NCBI GenBank assembly: GCA_946183785.1
Contig: CAMHCS010000014.1
Span: 1-64,000 of the forward strand
Origin: an uncultured Selenomonadales bacterium
GTDB taxonomy: Bacteria; Bacillota; Negativicutes; Selenomonadales; Selenomonadaceae
DNA length: 64,000 nt
Direction of reading: 5' to 3'
Shown: positions 18,160 to 60,529 of the stretch, piece after piece
Numbering within the stretch: position 1 is the first letter of the stretch
Layout: each line of letters opens with the position of its first letter
Position numbers and translations under genes: made by a program
The notes under the pieces: model-generated
What the model saw: the letters and a program-made list of their open reading frames with translations, nothing else
Told to the model about the DNA's origin: nothing
The model's database searches: none

Positions 18160-19023
18160 CTATATTATTTCTTCTTTATGCAACCGCTCCGCGATGCTCG
18201 TACCCGCCAGCGCCTTCATCAGCTTCTCGTCTCCCGCCTTTTCCTGTTGCAGCTTGCGCAGCTCGATGGCGACCAAGTCCAGCACTTTGTCGACGGCTCG
18301 GTAGACCTTGGCGCACTCCTCCGGCTGTACCTTCTGCGTGTAGAACGAGAGACGGCCTGTGCAGGTATCGCCACCTTTCGTCAGGCCGAAAAATATACGC
18401 TGCCGGTCTGCGTCAAAATCCCCGAAGGCGGCAATCTGCCCCAGCGCGTCGGCAAGTATTTCGTCGAGGGCATGATTTTGCATATCACCAAACAGCCGCA
18501 GTGTCTCATAATGGGCGCTCTCGTGGCGCCGCCGCAGCTGATGGGAACAATCCAGCCACTCCGTTTCGGGGAGCCCGAGCTTTTCGGAAGGAATATTACT
18601 GTAGAGCGCATAGTTCAGAAGCAGAACGCGATGGCGAAAGATTTTTTCCGCCCGCGCCTCGATCGTGAACGCGTTCACCGTCAGCGGCAGTTTCGATGCC
18701 TCTCCCCGAGCGTTCAACAGCGCTTCCATCTGCCGGAAATCCCTGTGGCTCTCCGTCGCAATAACGGGAAGCCGTCCTCCCAACGTATGCGCGAAGGAAA
18801 TATTCAGCGCGCCAGGATTTTCCCACTGGAAATCAAAGGCCGGGAGGCGCAGCACATCCGCCAGGAAATCCAGCGCCGACTGTCCGTCCGCCTCCTGCCA
18901 GCTTGCGGTGAATGGTTCGTCCGCCATCGGCAGATCCGGCAAGGCAGCCGGGATTCTGTATTTCCGCTGCAAATACTCGTCGGCGGATTGGCCTTGCATG
19001 GCCGCATGTTTTTTTTCGTCCAT
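18160..19023 (-). CDS. Unrecognised protein with HExxH...ExxxD motif
   Basis: 287 residues from MDEKKHAAMQGQ. The ATG has AGGAG 11 bases upstream; an upstream extension of 27 codons runs into the 19041 repeat and is rejected. I do not recognise the family. No signal peptide or membrane segment is evident. It contains HESAH at residues 167-171 and EILAD at 188-192, the HExxH plus ExxxD spacing typical of gluzincin metallopeptidases. Whether this is a zinc site is inference. The C-terminal 80 residues are predicted helical with many charged residues. It stands alone, separated by its own gap from the glucosaminidase operon. Confidence 0.75.
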   Translation of the reverse strand: MDEKKHAAMQGQSADEYLQRKYRIPAALPDLPMADEPFTASWQEADGQSALDFLADVLRLPAFDFQWENPGALNISFAHTLGGRLPVIATESHRDFRQMEALLNARGEASKLPLTVNAFTIEARAEKIFRHRVLLLNYALYSNIPSEKLGLPETEWLDCSHQLRRRHESAHYETLRLFGDMQNHALDEILADALGQIAAFGDFDADRQRIFFGLTKGGDTCTGRLSFYTQKVQPEECAKVYRAVDKVLDLVAIELRKLQQEKAGDEKLMKALAGTSIAERLHKEEII

Positions 19024-19040
19024 ATGAATCTTCTCTCCTT

Positions 19041-19206
19041 TAGGGAACCACTGAATAAGTCCCTCCGCGCCTCTGCCGGGTCTTTTTCCGCCTGTCGTCG
19101 TCAAATCCCTCTCGACGTAGCGATGCTACGCCTTCGAGGGCTTTTCCTAGACAGTCGAAAAAATCCCTCGACAGATGCACGAATTGACTTAATCAGTGTT
19201 TCCTTA
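19041..19206. repeat. 166-bp palindromic MITE-like element, copy 1
   Basis: The ends are imperfect inverted repeats of about 21 bases (TAGGGAACCACTGAATAAGT on the left, its counterpart ending CAGTGTTTCCTTA on the right), each beginning with TA. The interior is itself a long imperfect palindrome centred on GTAGCGATGCTAC. An equally long copy lies inverted at 60350-60515. There is no room for a protein. It lies just upstream of the gene at 18160-19023. The remainder of the 19024-19530 gap is AT-rich with the pckA terminator. Confidence 0.88.
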
Positions 19207-19457
19207 GGCAAAACGGATTCACGAAATGATTGATTCATTGACCTTTTTTATTATATATCATTTGATACACATACGCGACGCAAAAATGGACGCAAGACAT
19301 AAACAGACCAAACGCTCATCGCCCCGAAATCGCATTTTCTCATTGTTGCTCTTGATTCCCACAGAAATGAAACCACCTTGCACGTGAGATAAAAATTCGA
19401 CGGAGAGCAATACCCGGAGGACAGCGGCCAATCAAAAACTTTTCGATAAATAGTAAA

Positions 19458-40596: not shown

Positions 40597-40670
40597 AGTC
40601 TCTCCGTGCCTCTGTCGGGTCTTTATCCGTCATGCTGTGTCAACATGCCCGACGAAAAAACCTTCGACAA
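40597..40670. repeat. Decayed third copy of the MITE-like element
   Basis: AGTCTCTCCGTGCCTCTGTC and the following 27 bases match positions 19058-19105 of copy 1 at roughly four of five bases. After that the central hairpin is missing, and GACGAAAAAACCTTCGACA matches the right part. Both terminal repeats are lost or unrecognisable. It lies in the 3' untranslated region of the gene at 40704-41597. Confidence 0.7.
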
Positions 40671-40703
40671 ACGCGCGCATCGCCTTATCCGCCATTTCCT
40701 TTA

Positions 40704-60341: not shown

Positions 60342-60349
60342 CTCATTTC

Positions 60350-60515
60350 TAAGGAAGCACTGATTAAGTCAAGTCGTGGCCCTGTCGAGGGATTTTTTCG
60401 TCAGGCAAGGAAAAGTGCTCGAAGTCGTAGCAGAGCTACGTCGAGAGCACTTTGACGCAGCATGACGGAAAAAGACCCGTCAGGGGCGCGGCGGGACTTA
60501 TTCAGTGCTTCCCTA
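60350..60515. repeat. 166-bp palindromic MITE-like element, copy 2 (inverted)
   Basis: Same length as copy 1 at 19041-19206 and alignable to it in inverted orientation throughout. The ends TAAGGAAGCACTGATTAAGT and the complement of TAGGGAAGCACTGAATAAGT are inverted repeats. The central stem arms are GTGCTC/GAGCAC, where copy 1 has CCCTC/GAGGG at the same place. It lies between the orphan terminator and the chemoreceptor remnant. The rest of the 60192-60763 gap holds these items and the promoter of the cyclase gene. Confidence 0.88.
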
Positions 60516-60529
60516 ATAGTATGATATGA

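Follow-up and report, generated by a model that had tools for sequence, protein, structure and literature searches.

A palindromic IS5-family MITE of Negativicutes with a conserved core that is probably kept as a folded strand

The palindromic repeat at 19041-19206 of the window, the 64-kb stretch of DNA analysed here, is on sequence grounds a MITE of the IS5 family and not of IS630/mariner. We consider it quite probable that it is a non-autonomous IS5-family MITE with a conserved core, which is kept as a folded strand and travels as cargo. The usual definition of a MITE rests on its ends, the interior being arbitrary. Here it is the interior that is conserved: it is shared by 16 families, the ends around it are interchangeable, and one of its strands has an RNA-type signature. 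This makes a long-standing question testable, namely whether bacterial MITEs have stem-loops simply because of their inverted repeats or because the RNA is selected. In addition, the motif model, which is undescribed, could be used for the annotation of thousands of intergenic repeats in Negativicutes.

Structure of the element

The original prediction described a non-coding 166-bp unit that folds back on itself, with an inverted copy of equal length and a remnant between the two, and all of this is present in the window sequence. Compared with 200 dinucleotide shuffles, the fold of the unit is far more stable on both strands (z of -6.9 on the plus strand and -11.8 on the minus strand), and the second copy (60350-60515) is inverted and has the same length. 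The terminal repeats beginning with TA, however, had to be redefined. According to the alignment of the copies at their junctions, the mobile unit proper comprises 160 bp (19044-19203) and its true ends are not TA. The outer three bases on each side of the 166-bp unit are part of the 4-bp target duplication TTAG, and because TA falls within this duplication, the longer unit only appears to end in TA. The unit of 160 bp (consensus GGAAnCACTGAWTAAGTC...GACTTAWTCAGTGnTTCC) is short, has 18-bp imperfect terminal inverted repeats and contains no ORF of its own. Its features and those of the other copies in the window are listed in Table 1.

Table 1. Coordinates of the MITE, its copies and their conserved cores in the window.
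Feature	Position	Strand	Remarks
Target duplication TTAG, left copy	19040-19043		Adjoins Shine-Dalgarno-like AGGAGAG of the DUF7005 gene (minus strand)
IS5-type MITE, 160 bp	19044-19203	-	Minus is the strand folding as the conserved RNA-like rod
Terminal inverted repeat GGAACCACTGAATAAGTC	19044-19061	+
Terminal inverted repeat GGAAACACTGATTAAGTC (as read on the minus strand)	19186-19203	-
Conserved structured core	19070-19178	-	Model R1: 117 bits on minus, 29 bits on plus
Target duplication TTAG, right copy	19204-19207
Second full-length copy, subfamily B	60353-60512	+ (structured strand)	84% identity over 166 bp
CTAA duplication of the second copy	60349-60352 and 60513-60516
Conserved structured core, second copy	60378-60486	+	116.5 bits
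Truncated core remnant without distal hairpin	40609-40674	-	37.5 bits; remnant spans about 40597-40674

The window copy precedes a DUF7005 gene (18160-19026, minus strand), with 17 bp between it and the start codon, and the structured strand of the copy corresponds to the sense direction of this gene. Since the Shine-Dalgarno sequence directly adjoins the target duplication, the insertion replaced the upstream leader of the gene. Shortened cores occur as well: what is missing from both the core remnant in the window and a core at L047:2198-2266 is precisely the distal hairpin, past internal loop 1.

Spread in the genome and the transposase partner

A search for the terminal repeats gave 119 forward and 128 reverse matches genome-wide, as opposed to 0 and 0 for a reversed-pattern control, which corresponds to about 120 elements in the genome of this rumen-type bacterium; these fall into at least two subfamilies. 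An exact 4-bp duplication of the YTAR type was identified in 56 of the 65 copies examined, with 33 cases of TTAA, followed by TAAA, TTAG, TTTA, CTAA and others, among them TTGA, a duplication without TA. Several copies are inserted side by side with a common target. At C14:66368-66697, C12:36922-37233, L129 and L036, elements lie directly beside or within another copy, the 4-bp target being shared. For the empty-site search, the joined flanks of ten copies were compared with the genomes of the genus. A clean, contiguous empty target was obtained for the copy at C4:49785 in two relatives (G133 and G128), and other sites are contiguous without the element in relatives, but diverged around the junction, as are most of the empty-site alignments.

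The sister genome G137 holds a copy that is 100% identical to the window element, together with an intact insertion sequence of 1225 bp, whose ends, GGAAACACTGAAAAAGTC and GGAAGCACTGAATAAG, match the MITE ends. This insertion sequence is flanked by a TAAA duplication and encodes a transposase of 330 aa, which belongs to the IS5 family (NCBIfam NF033581 with 303 bits at a cut-off of 140; Pfam DUF772 and DDE_Tnp_1) and has homologues with similar ends in other genera. The MITE family proposed in the original prediction is thus borne out: there are about 120 copies, the targets are duplicated, empty sites exist, and a sister species has an autonomous element that shares the ends. No homologue of the G137 transposase was found in the window's own assembly, a 94-contig draft in which the gene may have been lost or may lie in an assembly gap, and current mobility in this genome is therefore doubtful. 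IS1182 and two other DDE_Tnp_1 genes of the same genome were considered as partners and rejected, as their ends do not match. The plasmid collections, phage collections and viral contigs gave no match to the element.

With regard to insertion sites, no copy lies within a called gene, the gene calls being those of a simple codon model made for this analysis. The copies are closer to the 3' than to the 5' ends of genes (median 62 vs 137 bp), and their orientation relative to the flanking genes shows no bias (21 vs 18 in tandem contexts). A preference for insertion at stop codons was not significant (6 of 42 copies vs 8% expected, p = 0.12). It had been suggested that the elements are expressed as RNA hairpins in 3' ends; the strand-specific conservation of structure described below favours the hairpin, the distances point weakly to 3' ends, and the orientation is random.

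The conserved core and its changing ends

The conserved part of these elements is an internal core of ~110 nt, rather than the ends. A covariance model of the core matched 89 of 189 genomes (20 of 30 genera) of the bacterial family and 98 of 300 genomes (36 of 97 genera, in 16 families) of the class Negativicutes. Related cores with IS5 ends are also present in Ruminococcus and in Oscillospiraceae MAGs. In genus g11, the repeats on either side of the same core are of quite another kind (GGGGYTGTTGGTAAACTC) and match resident fragments and an IS of roughly 860 bp from another IS5-family subgroup (NF033580, assigned on two pieces) with a TA duplication. Further end types around the core in the class are GGTAAsCACTGATTAAATG, GGGCGTACTGATAAAC and GGGTGTGTCTGAAAACT. 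The different ends form a spectrum, in which some types look like diverged versions of others, plus at least two clearly distinct subgroups. No terminal repeats are evident around the cores of genus g19 (L280-L285).

Some of the g19 cores are located just 3' of stop codons, and two lie at an orthologous site in two species. The single core of genus g3 (L368-L370, about 1500-1606) is syntenic and lies within a sub-threshold T-box leader match, which extends over 322 bp for a model of 219 positions, as if the core had entered the riboswitch and been retained there. For the core as a whole, descent from one fixed ancestral locus was considered and rejected: the single copies in g3 are syntenic, but the copies in g21 are mostly not. 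In four elements (L065 470-649, L162, L166 and L067 1562-1771), a helix is replaced or extended at a fixed place by another short palindrome, e.g. GTGACATGCCAGTGGCATATCACG.

IS5-type ends were also seen outside this group. Betaproteobacterial elements of about 110 bp (L098, L111, L137, L143, L146, L150, L165 and others) have the same IS5-type ends and YTAR duplications, with dRS3-like interiors (CATTCCCGCG...CGCGGGAATG). Units with IS5 ends and flanking YTAR duplications are also present in Fretibacterium fastidiosum, with lengths of 77 and about 254 bp (L112, L130, L149).

Evidence for a folded strand

To assess the conservation of the fold, 72 sequences were aligned by structure and thinned to 39 representatives with at most 85% identity. 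In this alignment, which is anchored on helices and thus leans towards structure, 87% of the paired cells can pair, compared with 60% with shuffled partners (maximum 62% in 200 shuffles, which are uncorrected for phylogeny). For 28 of the 34 pairs, the 39 representatives show two or more Watson-Crick types that each occur two or more times. The internal loops GA/GA (tandem GA), AAGGAA and UGACRCA recur across families.

The mismatches between the arms read as G.U on one strand, referred to here as the R strand (minus in the window copy), and as A.C on the opposite strand. In a simple arm-to-arm alignment the wobble bias is no more than mild (183 vs 129), because the internal loops shift the register, and a census was used instead in which the sequences were folded with Watson-Crick pairs only and 1x1 mismatches were counted, in order to avoid circularity. 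Carried out in a strand-neutral manner on the fold of the disfavoured strand, it gave 146 G.U on R as opposed to 15 A.C, counts that come from phylogenetically related sequences and do not represent independent events. The R strand folds better in 70 of the 72 elements, and the two exceptions (L042 and L063) appear to be mis-oriented; on the wrong strand the model scores about 30 bits, vs 117. In control palindromes with IS5 ends and without the core, the strands differ by 0.1-8.1 kcal/mol, mostly by less than 6, and two larger differences in the control set belong to elements of the core-bearing family.

The bias of G.U to one strand and the covariation point to a core that is kept in the form of a folded single strand. 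When folded with DNA parameters, the strands differ less (-26.4 vs -17.0 and -29.3 vs -25.6), which favours RNA over single-stranded DNA. Judged from these sequence features, the core is probably selected as RNA and less likely as single-stranded DNA. Neither a promoter nor a U-tract terminator was recognised in the element, and Rfam 15 contains no family at or above its gathering score for it; nearby, only tRNA, T-box and a weak glmS match occur.

Proposed mechanism and alternative explanations

We propose that the GGAAnCACTGAWTAAGTC ends are recognised by an IS5-type DDE transposase whose gene lies elsewhere, and that this enzyme inserts the unit at YTAR-like sites with a 4-bp duplication; the anatomy shows the ends and the duplications, from which we infer mobilisation. 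The interior is not leftover IS junk but a conserved, oriented foldback core, which is class-wide and associated with several types of terminal repeats, and which is predicted to fold into a rod whose internal loops are conserved (tandem GA, AAGGAA / UGACRCA). This core is probably kept as a folded single strand, presumably as RNA from read-through transcription, and could survive as cargo by riding whichever IS5-like transposase is resident. The RNA rod might stabilise, process or insulate the transcripts that cross the core. Only tentatively, and as something we would sooner doubt than assert, do we suggest that the core is inherited independently, as a selfish RNA module of Negativicutes and a few Clostridia, which repeatedly acquires the ends of resident IS, so that the cargo would be the unit of inheritance.

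Two other explanations would account for the palindrome without selection on RNA. The core may be kept as a single-stranded DNA hairpin, for example as the substrate of a HUH/RAYT-type enzyme or as a structure formed in replication, its IS5-like ends having been acquired secondarily. Such a hairpin would tolerate G.T as well, and the g19 cores without evident terminal repeats and the random orientation relative to genes are consistent with it, but the smaller strand difference with DNA parameters than with RNA parameters and the IS5-type duplications at full copies make it unlikely. Even less probable is an ordinary MITE whose decaying inverted arms stay alike through arm-to-arm conversion, the RNA not being under selection. 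Arm conversion would neither keep the same internal-loop mismatches across families nor yield a wobble bias on one strand, and the control palindromes show little strand difference; in its favour, palindromic MITEs are common, the orientation relative to genes is again random, and IS5-ended palindromes with unrelated interiors occur in other phyla.

The two remaining explanations concern the nature of the element as such. A regulatory RNA or terminator array fixed in the host, rather than a mobile element, would agree with the conserved structure and with the position of the copies closer to 3' gene ends. We regard it as very improbable, since it does not account for exact duplications, near-identical dispersed copies, empty sites and nested insertions, nor would an element with no recognised U-tract terminator or promoter be expected. 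The IS630/Tc1-mariner origin with TA duplication given in the original prediction was rejected and is scarcely credible, although the 166-bp unit as reported does start and finish with TA. This TA sits in a 4-bp YTAR-like duplication, which was found in place of a TA duplication, TTGA also occurs, and the matching IS is of the IS5 family; the search of the genome for an IS630-type (DDE_3) transposase with the MITE ends gave one sub-threshold fragment and no such ends. The non-autonomous IS5-family MITE with a core kept as a folded strand is the explanation that we favour.

Comparison with known systems

In IS5 of Escherichia coli, the repeats are imperfect and 16 bp long, and the target comprises 4 bp (PMC11677980). 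The window element resembles IS5 and IS5-family MITEs in its repeats of the GGAA...GAATAAG kind and in the 4-bp duplication, the CTAA target of IS5 being a motif seen here, whereas its interior is a class-wide structured core unrelated to the internal sequence of IS5. RUP of Streptococcus pneumoniae is a short palindromic MITE of the IS630 type that is mobilised in trans (PMC2229807), as we infer for the window element. It differs in its TA insertion and IS630-Spn1 ends, as opposed to the IS5 ends and 4-bp target described here.

In a recent survey of ncRNAs, elements with the hallmarks of the window element are described as "mobile/repeat sequence candidates"; among them is MRSC-65-2 (PMC11109978), which likewise has a long stem with covariation, occurs dozens of times per genome in no consistent orientation and is suspected to depend on a transposase. 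However, its conserved UYCCGG repeat is absent, by inspection, from both strands of 19044-19203, and the conserved loops of the window element (GA/GA, AAGGAA and UGACRCA) are unlike it.

For other short repeats, consequences at the RNA level have been described: NEMIS acts via RNase III and ERIC destabilises mRNA in an orientation-dependent manner (PMC2229807), and bcr1 is named as a comparable element (PMC3110155). ERIC, NEMIS/Correia and bcr1 share with the window element a length of 100-200 bp, terminal repeats and duplications, and their transcripts form long stem-loops. They are set apart here by description, the sequence comparison for the element being that with Rfam: each of them has one end type and belongs to one lineage, whereas here one core occurs with several end types in 16 families.
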